A stretch of DNA of 64,000 nucleotides, from the NCBI RefSeq assembly GCF_037198285.1, contig NZ_CP147243.1, forward strand, positions 558,001 through 622,000. Reading direction: 5' to 3'. Shown here one piece after another: positions 14,841-22,253 of this stretch. The position numbers and the translations under genes were made by a program. Origin of the DNA: Haladaptatus sp. DJG-WS-42. Lineage in GTDB: Archaea; Halobacteriota; Halobacteria; Halobacteriales; Halococcaceae. The notes under the pieces are model-generated. The model did no database searches and was not told the origin of the DNA. It was given only the letters and a program-made list of their open reading frames with translations. Every line of letters begins with the position of its first letter. Position 1 is the first letter of the stretch.

Positions 14841-15788
14841 ATGTTCACACGGTTTTCTATCCCGACGCCGTTTCGTGTCGGCGCGGTCAACGCCTACCTC
14901 TCCGGCCGAACCGTCGTTGACCCCGGCCCCGACAGCGAGGAGGCGTGGGCCGCCCTCTTAGACGGCTTCGACGAACACGGCATGACGCCTGACGAAGTCG
15001 AACAGGTTGTCGTCACCCACCCGCACCCAGACCACTTCGGCCTCGCCGCCCGGCTCCAAGCCGAAGGCGCAACCGTCATCGCCAGCCCCGAAGCCGCCCG
15101 CATCATGGCCGACTTCCCCGGCGAACTCGAACACGAACAGACCTTCTTCGCCGACTTCTTCGAGCGCAACGGCATGTCGAACGCGACCGCAAACGCCGTC
15201 GTCAACCTCCCCGAGTCGTTCCTCTCCTACGCGCCAAGCGTCGAGACCGACCACGAAGTCAGCGAGGGCGACAAAATCGAAATCAACGGCGAGCCGCTGG
15301 TCGCCCACCGCGTCACCGGTCACGCCATTGGCGAACTCATCTTCGAATTCACCGAGGGCGACGAACGCCACGCCATCATCGGCGACAACGTCCTCAACGA
15401 GATTACGCCAAACCCGCTGCTTCAGCCTCCAGAACCCGGCGAAGACGAGCGCCCGCGCCCGCTCCCGGCGTTCAACGACTCACTCCGCGCGCTCAAAGCC
15501 GAGCACTACGACCGATTCCTCCCCGGTCACCGAACCATCATCGAGAACCCGAGCCAGCGCATCCAAGAGATGCTCGACGCACACGACGACCGAACGGAGA
15601 CGGTGTACGGTCTCGTAGACGGCCCGACGACGGCCGTCGAAATCATGCACGAACTGTTCGGCGACCTCCCCGTCACCGAGTTCTTCCCCGGCATGAGCGA
15701 AGCCGTTGGCCACTTAGACGTCCTCGAAGCCCGCGGCAAGGTGCGCCAACACGAGAACGGCGGCGTCATCGTCTACGAGCGAACATGA
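14841..15788 (+). CDS. MBL-fold metallo-hydrolase
   Basis: The ATG at 14841 follows a TATA-like box by 26 nt and gives 315 residues beginning MFTRFSIPTPFRVGAVNAYL. The metallo-beta-lactamase motif THPHPDH (HxHxDH) lies near residue 57-63, with downstream metal ligands in VTGHA and IIGDNVL. The C-terminal HGLxxGHxxxI-like part is FLPGHRTII, followed by a winged-helix-like tail (TTAVEIMHELFGD), as in the LACTB2-type branch. It likely hydrolyses a thioester, lactone or phosphodiester; the substrate is unknown. It overlaps the following amidohydrolase by 4 bp, so the two are probably functionally linked. Confidence 0.9.
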   Translation: MFTRFSIPTPFRVGAVNAYLSGRTVVDPGPDSEEAWAALLDGFDEHGMTPDEVEQVVVTHPHPDHFGLAARLQAEGATVIASPEAARIMADFPGELEHEQTFFADFFERNGMSNATANAVVNLPESFLSYAPSVETDHEVSEGDKIEINGEPLVAHRVTGHAIGELIFEFTEGDERHAIIGDNVLNEITPNPLLQPPEPGEDERPRPLPAFNDSLRALKAEHYDRFLPGHRTIIENPSQRIQEMLDAHDDRTETVYGLVDGPTTAVEIMHELFGDLPVTEFFPGMSEAVGHLDVLEARGKVRQHENGGVIVYERT

Positions 15789-17512
15789 CTCGCCTCCAAG
15801 CCGTTGCTCTTGGAGACGCACCCGCAGACCTCGTTGTCCGCGGCGCACGAGTGCTGTTTCCTGAGACAGGAGCGAAGAAGAAGCGAGCCATCGCCGTCGT
15901 GGACGACCAAATCGCGGCGCTCCCCGAAGACCCCGAGCCAATCATCGGCCCCGACACGACCGTCATCGACGCAACCGGGCTCGTCGCCATCCCCGGGCTC
16001 ATCGACGCCCACACCCACATCGAAGCCCAACACGCCTTCGAATACGCCTACCCACACGTCCTCGAAGCGGGCACCACGAGCGTCATAAGCGAGTCGAACT
16101 GCCTCGGCTCGCTCTACGGCGCGACCGCTGTCGAACAGCTGCTGCGCGCAACCGCCCCGCTCGCAGTGAACGTGTTTTTCACCGTCCCTCCACAGCCACT
16201 CGTCTCCACATTCACGCCCGCGTGGGGCGATAAAACGGAGAAAGACGCGCTCTGTGACCTCCTCACCCACCCGCGCGTCGTCGGGGTTGGCGAGGTTGAC
16301 TGGATACACGTCGTCGGGCGCGACCCACCGCTGTTCGACCTCTACGACGAAGCACGAACCCTCGGCACGCCAATCAGCGGCCACGGCGCGGGCTGTAAGG
16401 GCGCGAACCTGCAGGCGTTTGCAAGCGTCGTGGACAACGACCACGAAGCCATCACGGGCGAGGAAATGATTTCCCGCCTCGAAAACGGCATCCACGCCAT
16501 CGGGCGGTCGGGAACGGTCCGCGACGACACACAAGCCGTCGTAGACGCCTACCACGAAGTCGGCCCGGCAGACCTCTCGCTTTCGACCGACAGCGTCTGG
16601 CCCGGTGACGTGCGCGAGGGGATCTACATGAACCGCGTCGTCCGCCGCGCAATCGACGCGGGTGTCACTCCCGAAGACGCGATTCGGATGGCGACGCTGA
16701 ATCCAGCAAGACACTTTGGACTCACAGACCGCGGCACGCTCTCGCCGGGCGCTCGAGCCGACATCGTCCTCCTCTCCGACCTCGAAGCAGTCGAAGTCGA
16801 GACGGTCATTTCAGGCGGCGAAGTCGTGGTCGAAAACGGCACCGCGACCGTCGAGCCAGTCCCCTACGAATACCCAGACCACTTCTACGAGAGCGTCCAC
16901 CTCCCCGAAACGCTCGACCTCACAGTGCCTGAGTCCGTCGCCCGCAACGGCACCGTCCGCGCCATCGAACACGTCACCGGCCTCTTCACCCAAGACACGC
17001 TCGCAGAGCCAGCGGTCGAAGCCGGGAATCTCGTTGCTGACCCCGACGCCGACGTGCTGAAAGTCGTCGTCATTGACCGCCATCCCGAAAGCGACGCCGA
17101 CGCCTTCGTCGGCTTCGTCACCGGCCTCGGCCTCACCTCGGGAGCCGTGGCGACAACCACCGCGTGGGAGGCCGGACTGACCATCGCCGTGGGCGCAGAC
17201 GACGAGGCAATCCATCGCGCCATCGACCACCTCCACGAGCTAGGCGGTGGCTGGACGGTCGTAGACGACAATGAACTCACCGCGTCACACCCGTGTCGCG
17301 TCGGCGGATTTTTGGCAGACATCCCAATCGACGAGGCCGCAGCAAACGTCGAAGCCGTCAGCGCAGCGCTCAGAAACCAAGGCGTCACCGCAGACCACCC
17401 CATGCTCGCGGTCGCGACGCTCACCTTCCTCGGCGTCCCGATTCTCAAACTCACCCCGCAGGGTTACGCGAACATCCTGACCAAAGAACTGGTCGGCCTC
17501 ACGCCCGAATAA
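15785..17512 (+). CDS. Adenine deaminase-like amidohydrolase, divergent
   Basis: The 575-residue protein follows the layout of adenine deaminase: an N-terminal urease-like cap, the amidohydrolase barrel with metal motif DAHTHIE, and an adenine deaminase C-terminal domain (from about residue 400). Retained barrel residues include the Glu in GVGEVDW, the His in SGHGAG and the Asp in LSTDS. However, the family's conserved DPHEIAN stretch is ESNCLG here. The C-terminal AHDSHN and RHHGTG motifs of true adenine deaminases are also replaced (AWEAGLT and DRHPESD). It is therefore likely a hydrolase on another purine or cyclic amide. The start overlaps the MBL gene by 4 bp (ATGA). Confidence 0.8.
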   Translation: MTRLQAVALGDAPADLVVRGARVLFPETGAKKKRAIAVVDDQIAALPEDPEPIIGPDTTVIDATGLVAIPGLIDAHTHIEAQHAFEYAYPHVLEAGTTSVISESNCLGSLYGATAVEQLLRATAPLAVNVFFTVPPQPLVSTFTPAWGDKTEKDALCDLLTHPRVVGVGEVDWIHVVGRDPPLFDLYDEARTLGTPISGHGAGCKGANLQAFASVVDNDHEAITGEEMISRLENGIHAIGRSGTVRDDTQAVVDAYHEVGPADLSLSTDSVWPGDVREGIYMNRVVRRAIDAGVTPEDAIRMATLNPARHFGLTDRGTLSPGARADIVLLSDLEAVEVETVISGGEVVVENGTATVEPVPYEYPDHFYESVHLPETLDLTVPESVARNGTVRAIEHVTGLFTQDTLAEPAVEAGNLVADPDADVLKVVVIDRHPESDADAFVGFVTGLGLTSGAVATTTAWEAGLTIAVGADDEAIHRAIDHLHELGGGWTVVDDNELTASHPCRVGGFLADIPIDEAAANVEAVSAALRNQGVTADHPMLAVATLTFLGVPILKLTPQGYANILTKELVGLTPE

Positions 17513-17520
17513 CGACGAAC

Positions 17521-18054
17521 TCAGTAGGTCGGACTTTCCTCGGGAACGCCCTCTCGCTTGTTGACCGCGCGCGCGAGGACGAACAGCGCATCGGACAACC
17601 GATTCAGGTACTTCACGGCCTCTGGATTGGCCTCTTCTTCGTTGATGAGCGCGACCGCCCGGCGCTCGGCGCGACGGCAGACCGCGCGGGCGTGGTGGAG
17701 TTTCGCGCCGGGTTCGCTCCCTGAAGGCAGGATGAAGTTTCGAAGCGGCTCCAGTTCTGCGTCGAGTTCGTCCATCCACCCTTCGAGCAGCGCAACGTGT
17801 TCTGCCCGAACGACGGGGTCGTCTGCGTCCGGATCGGGGTTCGCAAAGTCCGCCTGCACGATGTGGAGATGGTTTTGAATCGAGCGGAGTTTCTCGTCTA
17901 TGTCTTCGTGGCCGGTCGGCCTGACGACACCGACGAGCGCGTTCACCTCGTCTACACTCCCGTAGGCTTCGATGCGGTGGCTCGCCTTCGAGACGCGAGA
18001 CATGTTCGAGAGGTCGGTCTTGCCCTCGTCGCCGCGTTTGGTGTAAATCTTCAT
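17521..18054 (-). CDS. Cob(I)yrinic acid a,c-diamide adenosyltransferase, PduO type
   Basis: The 177-residue protein begins MKIYTKRGDEGKTDLSNMSR, the ATP-binding N terminus of PduO-type corrinoid adenosyltransferases. It has the conserved RIEAYGSVDEVNALVG and the C-terminal CRRAERRAVALI segment. It transfers the 5'-deoxyadenosyl group from ATP to cob(I)alamin to form coenzyme B12. That cofactor serves methylmalonyl-CoA mutase, which would follow the carboxylase at the start of the window. It converges on the amidohydrolase, with 8 bp between them. Confidence 0.93.
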   Translation of the reverse strand: MKIYTKRGDEGKTDLSNMSRVSKASHRIEAYGSVDEVNALVGVVRPTGHEDIDEKLRSIQNHLHIVQADFANPDPDADDPVVRAEHVALLEGWMDELDAELEPLRNFILPSGSEPGAKLHHARAVCRRAERRAVALINEEEANPEAVKYLNRLSDALFVLARAVNKREGVPEESPTY

Positions 18055-18075
18055 GCCCGTATCGAGGGTCGGGAG

Positions 18076-18085
18076 TAACTTATAG
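18076..18085 (-). promoter_or_regulatory. TATA-like box of the adenosyltransferase gene
   Basis: On the minus strand the segment reads CTATAAGTTA, centred 27 nt before the ATG at 18054. The transcript is predicted to be leaderless. Confidence 0.6.
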
Positions 18086-18137
18086 TCGGGCCAGTCAGAC
18101 GGTGAACAGTTTTCAGGTGGCCCTACGAAGGCGAGGC

Positions 18138-18803
18138 ATGGCCTTCAGTGACACCCTTTGTGAGGAGGGCCGCCCCATCCTCGAATCGATTCTCGACCAC
18201 CCGATGGTCGTCGGCCTCGGCGACGGCACGCTCGATGAATCGCCGTTTCGCTACTGGGTGAAACAGGACTACGTATACCTCATAGACTACAGCCGGGTGT
18301 TCGCTCTCGGCGCGGCGTCCGCCCCCACGCTCACCCAACTCTCGACGTTCGCAACCCTGCTCGACGAGACGGTGAACACCGAAATGGAGCTTCACCGCGC
18401 CTACGCTGCCGAGTTCGGCATTAGCGAAGAGGCACTCGAAGCGACGAAGCCCTCGCCGACCACGCAAGCCTACACCGACTTCCTCGTCCGGACGGCAGCC
18501 ACCGAGCCATTCTCTCACCTCGTCGCTGCCCTCCTGCCGTGCATGTGGGGGTTCAACCAGACTGCCCGCAACCTCGACGTGCGCGGGAAACCCGACCATG
18601 AGCAGTACGCAGAATGGATTGCGATGTACGCGAGCGACGAGTTCACCGAGCTCACCGAGTGGTGTCTCGACCTGCTCGACGAGGTCGCCGCCGAAGCAGG
18701 CCCCACCGCCCGTGAAGAGATGCGCGAGCGGTTTCTCACCTCGTTTCGCTACGAGTACCGCTTCTGGGACGCCGCGTGGCGCGAGGAACGGTGGACTGTC
18801 TGA
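18138..18803 (+). CDS. tenA: TenA family protein, Cys type (thiaminase II / aminopyrimidine aminohydrolase)
   Basis: From ATG 18138 the protein has 221 residues. It carries the TenA_C active-site set in the usual positions: Asp44 (VKQDYVYL), nucleophile Cys135 (LLPCMWGF) and Glu206 (FRYEYRFWD). These match the Cys135/Asp44/Glu205 triad of Bacillus TenA. TenA_C enzymes hydrolyse aminopyrimidine breakdown products of thiamine to HMP. The stop codon overlaps the next TenA gene start (TGATG), and an SSS transporter follows. Upstream in-frame codons exist, but this ATG gives the conserved N terminus MAFSDTLCEE. Confidence 0.92.
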   Translation: MAFSDTLCEEGRPILESILDHPMVVGLGDGTLDESPFRYWVKQDYVYLIDYSRVFALGAASAPTLTQLSTFATLLDETVNTEMELHRAYAAEFGISEEALEATKPSPTTQAYTDFLVRTAATEPFSHLVAALLPCMWGFNQTARNLDVRGKPDHEQYAEWIAMYASDEFTELTEWCLDLLDEVAAEAGPTAREEMRERFLTSFRYEYRFWDAAWREERWTV

Positions 18804-19465
18804 TGGTGGGTGGCGAGCCACGATTCACGGAGCGCCTGCGTTCCCATTCGGAACCGGCCTGGACGAACGCGACGAACCACCAGTTCACCCACGAACTCGC
18901 GGCGGGAACTCTCGCAGATGACGCGCTCCGACGCTACCTCATTCAGGATTACGCATTCGTAGAGACCCTCACCGGTCTCGTTGGGAGCGCGGTTGTGACC
19001 GCGCCATCCATGGCCGAAAAGCGCCGACTCACCGACTTCCTCGTGACGCTTACCGGCGCCGAGAACGACTACTTCGAACGGTCGTTCGCCGCGCTCTCAG
19101 TCGATGAAGCCGCCTGGAAAGATCCCCAGAAACTACCGGTCACACAGGCCCTTGAAGACCTGTTCGTTCGCGCCACCCATCAGGGTGGGTACGCGGAGTC
19201 GCTCGCCGTACTCGTGCCAGCCGAGTGGGTATACCTCTCGTGGGCCCGTCCTCACCGAGACGCCGCTCCAGAAAAGTTCTACCACGAGGAGTGGATTGCG
19301 ATGCACGCGAGCGCCGAGTTCGAAGCGTTCGTTAGCTGGCTCAGAGCCCAGCTAGACGAACAGGGAGCCACGCTCTCCCCCCAGCGAACGGCACGCGTTC
19401 GCCGGTTGTTCAGCCGCACCGTGGAACTCGAAGTGGCGTTTTTCGATGCAGCATACGGAATATAA
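18803..19465 (+). CDS. TenA family protein, Glu type (lacks the catalytic Cys)
   Basis: The 220-residue second TenA overlaps the first by one base, so the two are translationally coupled. At the place of Cys135 it has Ala140 within PAEWVYLSW, the signature of the TenA_E class, which uses a Glu instead of Cys. Asp49 (IQDYAFV) and the C-terminal acidic residues (VELEVAFFD) are kept. TenA_E proteins have thiamine-salvage hydrolase activity on formylated or other aminopyrimidines in plants and bacteria. The pair may process two consecutive intermediates of thiamine breakdown. Confidence 0.88.
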   Translation: MVGGEPRFTERLRSHSEPAWTNATNHQFTHELAAGTLADDALRRYLIQDYAFVETLTGLVGSAVVTAPSMAEKRRLTDFLVTLTGAENDYFERSFAALSVDEAAWKDPQKLPVTQALEDLFVRATHQGGYAESLAVLVPAEWVYLSWARPHRDAAPEKFYHEEWIAMHASAEFEAFVSWLRAQLDEQGATLSPQRTARVRRLFSRTVELEVAFFDAAYGI

Positions 19466-19540
19466 GCCAGTGGTATTACCAATGTTTAACTAGGCCCATA
19501 GCCGAATGTGATCCATGTACGAACACTGTGAGGTGGGACG

Positions 19541-21064
19541 ATGGTAACGGCCAGCGTCGCCCTCGGACTGACTGTTCTCACGCTCGTCACCTTCGCGGGC
19601 CTCGGCACGTGGTACGCCCGCGGCCGCATCAACTCGGTGGAAGACTACATCACCGCCCGCAACTCGACGGGCAACGGGATGACCACCGCAACGCTCATCG
19701 CCTCCGGGATGGGCGCGTGGATTCTCTTTAGCCCGGCAGAGGCAGGCGCGGCATTCGGCGGCCTCACGGCCGTCCTCGGCTACGCAATCGGCAGCGCACT
19801 CCCACTGTTCGCGTTCATCGTGATTGGTCCGCGCATCCGGGAACTCATCCCCGAGGGCCACTCCATCACGGAGTACACCCTCGCGCGCTTCGGCCCGGTG
19901 ATGTACGTCTACGTCCTGCTCGTGAGCATCACCTACATGTTCATCTTCCTCGCCGCGGAGATGACCGGCATCGCGGGCGCACTCTCGCTTGTCGCGGGCG
20001 TCCCGACGTGGCAAACCGCCGCACTCGTTGGCCTGTTCGTCCTCGCCTACACCGGCTACGGCGGGTTGAAGGCAAGCATCTTCACCGACACCGTCCAGAC
20101 GCTCGTCATTCTCCCGATTCTCGCGATTGGCTTTGCGGGCGCACTGCTCGCCCTCGGCGGGACGGGCGAAATCTACCAGACCGTCGCAGAGACGAGTCCG
20201 AGCCTGCTTGACCCCGGCTTCCTCCCCGGCATCGAGTTCGGGGCCTACATCGCCGTCGCCGTCCTCGCCGCAGAGATGTTGAATCAGGCGTGGTGGCAGC
20301 GCATCTACGCCGCGAAAGACGAACGCACCCTCGCACGCTCCTTCACCATCGCCGCCATCACGGTGATTCCGATGGTGTTCTTGGCCGGACTGTTCGGCCT
20401 CGCCGCCTCCGGACTCGGTCTCGTCACGACAGACTTCACGGCGGGCTACAACGCCGATATTTCCTTCTTCCTCGTGCTCGACGCCGCGTTCCCCGAGTGG
20501 GTGACGCTCGTGGTCGTCATCCTCGCCATCTTACTCGTCATGAGCACCGCAGACACGCTGTTCAACGCGATTGCGAGCATCGTGACCGCAGACCTCCCGC
20601 TCGTCATGGACGACCCGGACCGCTCTACGCTCACGAACGCCGCGCGGGCGCTCACCGTCGTGGTCGCGCTCGCCGCCATCTTCGTCGGCGCACAGGGCTA
20701 CAGCGTGCTCACCATCTTCCTCATCGCAGACCTGCTCGCGGCGGCGACGTTCATTCCACTGCTGTTCGGCCTCTATTCGACGGAAGCGACTGGATTCGGC
20801 GCGCTCGTCTCAAGCATTCTTGGACTGCTCGTCGGCCTCGCCTACTTCCCGACACTCCGCGCTCCGCTCGCCGCGCTTCCAGTCATCGGAGACCTCCTGC
20901 CAACGGCGTCGTACTTCAACTCGTTCGTCGGGGCGGCGGTCGTTTCGGGGCTCGCCATCCTGCTCATCTCGCGGGTGACACCCGGGTCGTTCGACCTCGG
21001 GTCGCTCTCTCGCACCATCCACCAACTCGATGAGGTACGCCCAGATGGGGGTGAAGAGCGATGA
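19541..21064 (+). CDS. Sodium:solute symporter (SSS) family transporter
   Basis: The 507-residue protein has about 13 hydrophobic helices and the SSS N terminus with TM1 around VALGLTVLTLVTFAGLG, plus YGGLKASIFTDTVQTLV and SALPLFAFIVIGPRIREL. These mark the LeuT-fold sodium symporters of the PutP/PanF superfamily. Context with two TenA genes suggests uptake of HMP or another thiamine precursor; this is inference. A GAGGTG Shine-Dalgarno lies at 19530-19535 and a TATA-like TGTTTAAC about 50 nt further upstream, so this gene has its own leadered promoter. It overlaps the next micro-gene by 4 bp. Confidence 0.9.
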   Translation: MVTASVALGLTVLTLVTFAGLGTWYARGRINSVEDYITARNSTGNGMTTATLIASGMGAWILFSPAEAGAAFGGLTAVLGYAIGSALPLFAFIVIGPRIRELIPEGHSITEYTLARFGPVMYVYVLLVSITYMFIFLAAEMTGIAGALSLVAGVPTWQTAALVGLFVLAYTGYGGLKASIFTDTVQTLVILPILAIGFAGALLALGGTGEIYQTVAETSPSLLDPGFLPGIEFGAYIAVAVLAAEMLNQAWWQRIYAAKDERTLARSFTIAAITVIPMVFLAGLFGLAASGLGLVTTDFTAGYNADISFFLVLDAAFPEWVTLVVVILAILLVMSTADTLFNAIASIVTADLPLVMDDPDRSTLTNAARALTVVVALAAIFVGAQGYSVLTIFLIADLLAAATFIPLLFGLYSTEATGFGALVSSILGLLVGLAYFPTLRAPLAALPVIGDLLPTASYFNSFVGAAVVSGLAILLISRVTPGSFDLGSLSRTIHQLDEVRPDGGEER

Positions 21065-21177
21065 GCGCAATTGGCCAGACGCTGTTCTCCGCGCTGGCGT
21101 GGGGGTCGGTCGCGCTCGTCGTCGCCATCTTCGCCTACGAGATTTACGCCGTCGTCACCGATTGGCGCGGGTCGTAA
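21061..21177 (+). CDS. 38-residue single-helix membrane peptide, putative symporter accessory subunit
   Basis: This reading frame, too short for most gene callers, starts within the symporter stop codon (ATGA overlap). It encodes 38 residues, starting MSAIGQTLFSALAWGSV, with one transmembrane helix (residues 6-28) and a short charged end TDWRGS. Small membrane peptides encoded next to SSS symporters are known as symporter small accessory proteins. The 4-bp overlap, codon use and helix make expression likely. The proposed role is to assemble or stabilise the transporter. I recognise no closer family. Confidence 0.65.
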   Translation: MSAIGQTLFSALAWGSVALVVAIFAYEIYAVVTDWRGS

Positions 21178-21206
21178 CTTTTCTGTCCTGCCTCCGTACG
21201 CTGGGC

Positions 21207-22253
21207 ATGGCACTGTTCGCTGCCCTCGCAGAACTCCCGCTCTCGATTTCGTCCGTCTCGTACGAGCTGCACGAAGCAGAAACGTCGAGCGACTTCACCC
21301 GACTCTCGACCACGATTTCACTCGATGGTGACGGAGAAACCGGTCGTGGCGAGGACGTGACCTACGAACCAGCCGACCACCGCACGCTGATTGAGGCGGC
21401 TCCCACCTTCGACCTCGAAGGCGAATGGACGTTCGCAGAGTTCTCCTCCCGCCTCGCAGACATAGACCTGTTTCACGGCCGCGAGCCCGGCCGTCACGAT
21501 TTCAGAAACTATCGCCGGTGGGGCTTCGAGAGCGCGGCGCTCGACCTTGCGCTGAAGCAAGCGGACACCAGCCTCGCGGCTCAGTTGGGACTGGAATACC
21601 ACCCGGTCAGGTTCATCATCTCGACGCGCCTGCCCGACGCCTCCTTTAACCGCATCGAGACGTGGCTTTCCGTAGACGACGCCTACGAGTTCAAACTCGA
21701 CCCGACGAGCGAGTGGGACGACGACCTCGTTGCAGCCCTCGCAGCCACTGGCGCGGTGCGCGTCTGTGACCTGAAAGGCCACTACGAGGGCACGGACATA
21801 GACCAAGCCCCAGATCCCGAGTTGTACAAGCGCATCATTGAGGGGCTTCCGGAGGTCGTCATCGAAGACCCTGCGCTCACCGAAGCGACCCGACCACTCT
21901 TTTCCGGCCACGAAGGGCGCGTGTCGTGGGACGCACCCATCCACAGCCTTGACGACATTAAAAATCTCCCGTGGGAACCCGACTGGCTGAACATCAAGCC
22001 GTCACGCTTTGGCAGCGTCCAGTCGCTCCTCGAAAGCATCGAATACGCACAGGCGGCGGGGATGCAGTTGTACGGCGGCGGTCAGTTCGAACTCGACGTC
22101 GGACGTGAACACATCCACGCGCTCGCTTCGCTGTTCTACCCAGACACTGCAAACGACGTGGCACCCGCCGAGTACAATCAGCCAGAACCCACTGCAGGAC
22201 TGGCGAAAAGCCCACTGTCGCCACCTGACACACCGCGTGGATTCGAGTGGTAA
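21207..22253 (+). CDS. Enolase-superfamily protein of unknown substrate
   Basis: From ATG 21207 the protein has 348 residues. The C-terminal half has the barrel hallmarks of the enolase superfamily: metal ligands Asp in VCDLKG, Glu in VVIEDP and Asp in VSWDAP, the Lys general base in LNIKPSRFGS, and the closing segment YGGGQFELDVGREHIHA. The N-terminal half carries the capping-domain fragment NYRRWGFESAALDLALK. It is not an enolase or a known dipeptide epimerase or MenC by motif. It follows the symporter micro-gene by 29 bp and may belong to the same transcription unit. Confidence 0.75.
   Translation: MALFAALAELPLSISSVSYELHEAETSSDFTRLSTTISLDGDGETGRGEDVTYEPADHRTLIEAAPTFDLEGEWTFAEFSSRLADIDLFHGREPGRHDFRNYRRWGFESAALDLALKQADTSLAAQLGLEYHPVRFIISTRLPDASFNRIETWLSVDDAYEFKLDPTSEWDDDLVAALAATGAVRVCDLKGHYEGTDIDQAPDPELYKRIIEGLPEVVIEDPALTEATRPLFSGHEGRVSWDAPIHSLDDIKNLPWEPDWLNIKPSRFGSVQSLLESIEYAQAAGMQLYGGGQFELDVGREHIHALASLFYPDTANDVAPAEYNQPEPTAGLAKSPLSPPDTPRGFEW

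Follow-up and report, generated by a model that had tools for sequence, protein, structure and literature searches.

A haloarchaeal tandem of two TenA classes with a linked symporter and a thiamine-type operator: a predicted module for thiamine pyrimidine salvage

Background

The salvage of thiamine (vitamin B1) in plants, algae and marine bacteria involves two classes of TenA protein. TenA_E lacks the active-site cysteine and has two conserved glutamates, as the rule is worded in part of PMC5635689. Sections of PMC10470507 and PMC5635689 describe TenA_E of other organisms as converting N-formyl-4-amino-5-aminomethyl-2-methylpyrimidine (FAMP) to 4-amino-5-aminomethyl-2-methylpyrimidine (AmMP), after which TenA_C converts AmMP to 4-amino-5-hydroxymethyl-2-methylpyrimidine (HMP). 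ThiV of SAR11, a protein of the sodium:solute symporter (SSS) family, is regarded as an HMP importer (in the relevant part of PMC11452348). The identity of the FAMP and AmMP transporters is presented as an open question of the marine vitamin B1 field (PMC10470507, in part). Here we describe a locus at positions 18138 to 22253 of a 64 kb stretch of a haloarchaeal genome, called the window below, in which genes for two TenA proteins (tenA1 and tenA2), an SSS symporter, a microprotein and an enolase-superfamily protein follow one another on the plus strand.

We read this locus as a module by which a haloarchaeon that cannot make the pyrimidine half of thiamine takes it up and repairs it, and put the probability of this reading at roughly 0.65. 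The SSS symporter, probably together with the microprotein, would import a pyrimidine, either HMP or one of its damaged forms, AmMP or FAMP. TenA2 would deformylate FAMP to AmMP, TenA1 would hydrolyse AmMP to HMP, and the cell's own ThiDN would phosphorylate HMP and join it to the Thi4-derived thiazole. A thiamine-responsive regulator, most likely of the ThiR type with helix-turn-helix (HTH) and ThiN domains, would repress the symporter through an operator in front of it when thiamine phosphates suffice. The TenA pair of this genus would have lost its operator and be expressed from a promoter of its own. Gene content, the TenA classes, the conservation of cassette and microprotein, an operator shared with thi genes and the absence of ThiC are observed; the substrates, the order of the TenA steps, the binding regulator, the role of the microprotein and the separate tenA promoter are inferred. 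The locus offers a compact candidate for a FAMP/AmMP transporter, whose gene shares a locus with those of both repair enzymes in the genome of a predicted pyrimidine auxotroph. Genetic tools exist for the group (Haloferax), and the question becomes testable by simple growth experiments.

Results and Discussion

A tandem of two TenA classes

The original prediction placed a Cys-type TenA (D44, C135, E206) in one-base overlap with a Cys-less Glu-type TenA, followed by a sodium symporter, a micro-peptide and an enolase-superfamily protein. All five genes are present, and the overlap is real: the TGA stop of tenA1 and the ATG start of tenA2 share base 18803 (TGATG). TenA1 has the three named residues and exceeds the cut-off of the thiaminase II model TIGR04306 (186.7 against 130 bits). 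Its nearest entries in the PDB are the Bacillus subtilis TenA structures 1to9 and 1tyh, with which it aligns Cys to Cys; the active-site cysteine at the place of B. subtilis Cys135, which marks TenA_C, is thus present. TenA1 is a predicted AmMP-to-HMP hydrolase, an assignment that fits the published biochemistry of its relatives.

TenA2 reads P139-A140-E141, has D49 and E210 as well, and falls below the TIGR04306 cut-off (91 against 130 bits). Its nearest PDB entries, 1z72 and 2a6b of Streptococcus pneumoniae, likewise have Ala-Glu at the same place, and E141 and E210 are invariant in an alignment of 15 sequences. A140, E141 and E210 agree with the TenA_E rule, the residues meant by it having been judged through the 1z72 alignment. 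A tree of 92 rows splits TenA1 (61 rows) from TenA2 (31 rows) by a branch with 100/100 support; its rows are haloarchaeal throughout. The TenA1 rows divide into a group of 33, which holds the genus of the window, and one of 28, which holds the sampled rows of two other genera of the same family (L034 and L035). An exchange of tenA1 is hinted at, because the TenA1 group differs from that of L034 and L035, yet the symporter nearest to ours outside the genus is that of L035.

The TenA family PF03070 was found in 257 of the 392 genomes of the order. Neighbourhoods were compared in the window and in 60 further stretches taken around TenA genes, for the most part one per genus (61 loci in all); these were drawn from the best-scoring listed places and not from all 257, and so lean to close TenA1 relatives. 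TenA2 stands beside TenA1 in 32 of the 61 loci, with one copy broken and another partial; the symporter is found at 20, and TenA2 and symporter together at 15. Because the pairing recurs in 32 loci it exceeds chance, and the TenA1-TenA2 pair is a haloarchaeal cassette, its two classes lying side by side in many relatives. The only other thiamine gene noticed to recur near tenA1 is a ThiD-ThiN fusion cluster, identified by its start sequence and not by a profile (9 loci). A scan with the TenA2 alignment returned 80 named haloarchaeal loci, some from the same genomes, and the haloarchaeal placement of the window rests on the named relatives among these matches.

Two congeners bear on the standing of TenA2. 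One (G034; L032, 7630-7722) has no TenA2 between TenA1 and the symporter, and the other (G111; L033, 6333-6986) has a copy interrupted by an internal stop and without the usual start. Both congeners keep TenA1, the symporter, the microprotein and the enolase-like gene. The end branch of TenA2 is also longer in the trees than those of TenA1 or the symporter, as might be expected if TenA2 were on its way out in this lineage, kept by chance and contributing nothing. That view has to contend with a ratio of non-synonymous to synonymous substitution rates (dN/dS) of 0.126 between the window TenA2 and the broken G111 copy, at a dS of 1.67 that is near saturation. It also has to contend with the conservation of the window copy: of 52 columns that do not vary among 14 relatives it departs in only 3 (R15H, T133S and E186Q, in alignment columns), and A140, E141, D49 and E210 are all kept. 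We consider decay of TenA2 in the window genome unlikely. Relatives can do without TenA2, yet the window copy looks functional.

An operator before the symporter

A motif search upstream of tenA1 in the 61 stretches recovered ATAACCgGGTTaTAccACtAAgTTAT in 56, mostly about 53 nucleotides (nt) before the start codon, with a likelihood score of 675 against 83 to 86 in three shuffles. Among the 61 it was not found before tenA1 in L048, in L076 and in all three genomes of the window genus; in these three it lies before the symporter instead. The window site (Table 1) scores 20.9 bits on the plus and 19.4 bits on the minus strand, against 10.6 bits for the next best site in the 64 kb, and the congeners score 24.4 and 23.9 bits at the same place. 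The best score before the window tenA1 is -11.9, compared with 15 or more in 125 of 135 loci with TenA1. Where TenA1 and symporter occur together (64 loci, some of which share genomes), the site lies only before tenA1 in 55, before both genes in 6, only before the symporter in 3, all of this genus, and before neither in none. With its shifted operator the genus offers a clear example of how control over vitamin salvage has been rewired.

The motif also precedes thi4 in the own genome (23.1 bits), as well as thiDN and one of two genes related to aminoimidazole ribotide (AIR) synthase (21.8 bits), and it precedes thiC in two of three relatives scanned (32.6 and 30.6 bits). Because the same motif stands at thi4, the thiDN gene group and thiC, the palindrome is, judged by its company, a thiamine-type operator. 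No score as high as 18 arose in 3 Mb of first-order Markov DNA; sites above 20 bits were present in 3 of 20 stretches taken from the own genome, the window apart. The own-genome sites were located through two patterns and through stretches around thi genes, and not by an end-to-end matrix scan. The pattern TGGTAWTACCA with one mismatch gave 20 strand matches against 18 in a reversed control, and AGTNRTAYYACY gave 14 against 10. Both patterns alone are barely above chance; the weight matrix alone separates sites. The two NMT1-like loci scanned had no operator.

A protein with HTH_3 and ThiN domains, ThiR-type by this make-up, is encoded beside thi4 (L182:2845-3741). The two marks of a ThiR regulon, an HTH-ThiN regulator and palindromic sites at thiamine genes, are hence found together, and this protein most likely binds the palindrome.

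At the thiDN site (L183:5294-7486) the two AIR-synthase-related genes stand in tandem upstream of thiDN with the operator between them, and one of them may be ThiL. A further own-genome site was noticed at L195:1949-3349 (G000:C1, about 366,650-368,050), where an operator of 23.0 bits stands some 50 nt ahead of a gene of the Nramp family (PF01566, 228.8 bits) that one would not have expected in this regulon.

The original prediction had both TenAs expressed in a coupled manner, with uptake. This is not supported, as the operator lies between tenA2 and the symporter and none was found before tenA1. The two-step breakdown with uptake, which coupled expression was taken to suggest, fares better: the order TenA_E then TenA_C fits that published for relatives, in the parts of the papers cited above, and the symporter has a thiamine-type operator. 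A stronger form would have one transcript couple both TenAs, the symporter, the microprotein and the enolase-like protein, with all five acting in thiamine breakdown. The gaps between successive genes are short (-1, 75, -4 and 29 nt), and in relatives the operator before tenA1, where it is the sole site, could drive tenA1, tenA2 and the symporter as a unit. The internal position of the operator in three of three genomes of the genus argues against such a transcript, as does the distribution of the enolase-like gene (see below), and we regard it as very unlikely.

Thiamine pathway and predicted auxotrophy

ThiC was not found in the own genome, a single contig of 2.78 Mb that is 97.55% complete, whereas 13 of 14 controls gave a match. 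ThiDN, Thi4 and the HTH-ThiN protein are present. Since ThiC is missing while Thi4 and ThiDN are present, the host is a predicted pyrimidine (HMP) auxotroph: the thiazole would be made and joined, and the pyrimidine must therefore come from outside. The congener G034 also lacks ThiC, and G111 has it. Some Haloarcula are likewise described as being without thiC (PMC12029414, in part).

The presence of TenA and the absence of ThiC are not linked across the order. The 345 good genomes comprise 141 with TenA and ThiC, 85 with TenA only, 82 with ThiC only and 37 with neither (Fisher p 0.24), and over all 392 genomes p is 0.13. The cassette therefore serves HMP-making genomes too, and not only auxotrophs.

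The symporter and its predicted substrate

In the symporter tree the 20 tenA-linked copies group in a single clade (100/99), to the exclusion of paralogues from six genomes. Two of the 14 paralogue rows in this tree (L234 and L236) were wrong open reading frames (ORFs), by eye resembling the end of an acyl-CoA ligase, and were ignored; L235 and L238 gave no row. The original prediction had named a case against itself, in which the TenA genes are separated in relatives and the symporter clusters with another substrate group. Neighbourhood and phylogeny turn out otherwise, since the linked symporters form one clade and have the operator, and the TenA pairing recurs.

The two features of a ThiV-type transporter, SSS family (PF00474) and membership in the thiamine regulon, are found in the symporter, which has the operator, shared with thi genes, in front. 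Its AlphaFold2 (AF2) model has a predicted local distance difference test (pLDDT) score of 83.3 and matches SSS transporters generally, among them SiaT, NIS, DUR3 and SGLT-MAP17 complexes. The substrate-site residues of a ThiV-type symporter are given as Y78, D139 and F254 in SiaT numbering (PMC11452348, in part). Y81 and E140 are invariant in 19 aligned linked symporters, in a numbering of their own that is not aligned residue by residue to SiaT. We predict that the symporter imports a thiamine pyrimidine: HMP, AmMP or FAMP. CytX was considered as the transporter and set aside, there being no match to PF02133, a family found in 4 of 14 controls.

A different cargo would change the role of the TenA pair. 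If the symporter imported thiamine itself or the thiazole half, the pair would only recycle thiamine damaged inside the cell. An operator of this type would suit any thiamine-related importer, and 141 of the 226 TenA-positive good genomes have ThiC. The TenA genes and the symporter are under different control in this genus, and external FAMP was of no use to a bacterium that has TenA proteins of both types, according to a passage of PMC10470507. The presence of Thi4 speaks for the pyrimidine instead, since the thiazole can be made and the pyrimidine is the missing half; so does the symporter that stays with TenA1 despite the loss of TenA2 in L032. Import of thiamine or thiazole seems to us possible, though doubtful.

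The reading of the locus as a module for pyrimidine acquisition and repair has several results to answer. TenA2 is deleted in G034, a congener also without ThiC, and TenA2 is therefore unneeded for that life-style. The tenA genes here have no operator, so that their tie to thiamine control is lost. The best fold matches of the symporter model are urea, iodide, sugar and choline carriers, and TenA and ThiC are unlinked over the order as given above. A covariance model of the motif built from sequence only (R1) returned nothing at E<=10 when run against the whole own genome, a result that is uninformative because the window site itself was missed.

A coupled microprotein and a possible leader ORF

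A short ORF of 28 to 70 amino acids (aa) that contains the pattern F...W[GAS], starting -13 to -1 nt from the symporter stop, follows 36 of 63 linked symporters and 12 of the 20 in the sampled set; by blast the microprotein was found at 7 of the 61 loci. An alignment of 20 members reads IGxTxFAxLxWGSxxxVxxVFxYExY, with F9 and W14 invariant. Codon differences of the window gene from one congener are 8 synonymous and 0 non-synonymous, and from the other 11 and 3; because they are mostly synonymous, the ORF exceeds chance. The window microprotein has no Pfam match at E<=0.01, and no NCBIfam model was matched by more than one of the 20 members at E<=10. The microprotein is a conserved, translationally coupled, uncatalogued family with a single predicted helix. 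It was not found after 27 of the 63 symporters, Haloferax copies among them, and is therefore not essential to all.

The microprotein probably acts as a small subunit or stabiliser of the symporter, which makes it a candidate partner for a transporter of the SSS family. A paralogous symporter in L249 (G093:C12) is also followed by a coupled hydrophobic ORF of 75 aa, which starts at -4 and differs in sequence. Because this paralogue has one too, small coupled symporter partners may be more general.

Where the operator stands before the symporter, an ATG ORF that ends TGGTAA or TGGTGA across the symporter start was seen at 7 of 8 loci, with a GTG ORF at the eighth. In the window the operator start and the start of this ORF are exactly 53 nt apart, which is also the commonest distance from operator to start codon in tenA1 genes (50 of 119). 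By chance such an ORF would be expected with a probability of 0.20 to 0.28 per locus. As the loci are also related to one another and the pattern was noticed after the fact, we treat the putative leader ORF as a lead only.

These features can be joined in one tentative proposal, which we would sooner bet against than for. The symporter would be a two-part FAMP/AmMP importer, with the microprotein of about 40 aa as a dedicated single-helix subunit for folding or activity, in the manner of MAP17, which serves SGLT. Where the operator precedes the symporter, a leader ORF of 10 to 23 codons overlapping its start would meter translation. If true, the proposal would supply the missing FAMP/AmMP transporter together with a new small-subunit family.

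The enolase-like gene and other neighbours

The enolase-like gene had been counted as a member of the block. A homologue is present in 168 of 195 genomes, and the gene lies next to tenA in only 3 of the 61 loci, all of this genus. Because it is widespread, yet beside tenA in this genus alone, we leave it out of salvage; it is probably a neighbour outside the B1 pathway. K163, D188, E220, D242 and K264 are invariant in 26 enolase-like sequences, and we take them to be the lysine, the Asp/Glu/Asp metal ligands and the second lysine of the enolase superfamily. Fold and residues are those of an enolase-superfamily protein like o-succinylbenzoate synthase (OSBS) or N-succinylamino acid racemase (NSAR). 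The AF2 model (pLDDT 88.9) has as its best PDB match the OSBS 1sja, with E 1.2e-14 and a template modelling (TM) score of 0.66. MenC was rejected as an assignment (TIGR01928, 31.5 bits against a cut-off of 200.65). The gene start was taken at 21207, and not at 21030 where the longest ORF would begin.

On the far side of the cobalamin adenosyltransferase gene from tenA1, positions 15785-17512 of the window encode a 575-aa adenine-deaminase-like protein that scores 271 bits, under the ade cut-off of 472.5. This gene, the cobalamin adenosyltransferase gene and tenA1 are kept together in three of three genomes of the genus. No thiamine pyrophosphate (TPP) riboswitch was found by an Rfam scan of the 64 kb, the only match being a distant tRNA.

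Table 1. Features of the locus, in positions of the window
Feature	Position	Strand	Remarks
tenA1	18138..18803	+	Cys-type TenA (TenA_C), 221 aa; PF03070 182.6 bits, TIGR04306 186.7 bits
tenA2	18803..19465	+	Cys-less Glu-type TenA (TenA_E-like), 220 aa; PF03070 100.6 bits
Palindromic thiamine-type operator	19462..19487	none	Core AGTGGTATTACC at 19469-19480; overlaps the tenA2 stop, upstream of the symporter
Possible leader ORF (tentative)	19515..19547	+	10 codons, MYEHCEVGRW; ends TGGTAA across the symporter start
SSS-family sodium:solute symporter	19541..21064	+	507 aa; PF00474 85.1 bits
Microprotein	21061..21177	+	38 aa, single predicted helix; ATGA overlap with the symporter stop
Enolase-superfamily protein (OSBS/NSAR-like)	21207..22253	+	348 aa
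Divergent intergenic region	18055..18137	none	Between the cobalamin adenosyltransferase gene and tenA1; without the operator seen there in relatives
Cobalamin adenosyltransferase gene	17521-18054	-	Divergent from tenA1

Comparison with known systems

The TenA_C/TenA_E salvage of plants, algae and marine bacteria has both classes by the active-site rule and the same presumed substrates, FAMP and AmMP. The predicted haloarchaeal counterparts differ in that their genes are adjacent, with a one-base overlap, and share a locus with a symporter. ThiV of SAR11 shares with our symporter the SSS family, the thiamine regulon and a genome without ThiC. The haloarchaeal symporter has a palindromic DNA operator in place of a TPP riboswitch and is followed by a coupled microprotein; the likeness is one of family, regulon and genome content.

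An archaeal ThiR regulon has reportedly been described by Rodionov and colleagues (2017). It resembles the present case in an HTH-ThiN gene beside thi4 and in palindromes before thi4, the thiDN group, thiC, tenA and a transporter. The genus of the window departs from it in having the site before the symporter and none before tenA. MAP17 of human SGLT1/2 is likewise a tiny membrane protein that goes with a transporter of the SSS fold; for the microprotein the tie is genetic, through the overlapping start. The literature searched gave no specific paper on small symporter partners and no description of the TenA tandem or of the microprotein; the 2017 ThiR study lay outside that search, and parts may be known. 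We consider the locus a cassette of a known kind, made special by its tandem TenA classes, an operator that in this genus precedes the symporter but is missing upstream of tenA, a predicted auxotrophic host and an uncatalogued coupled microprotein.

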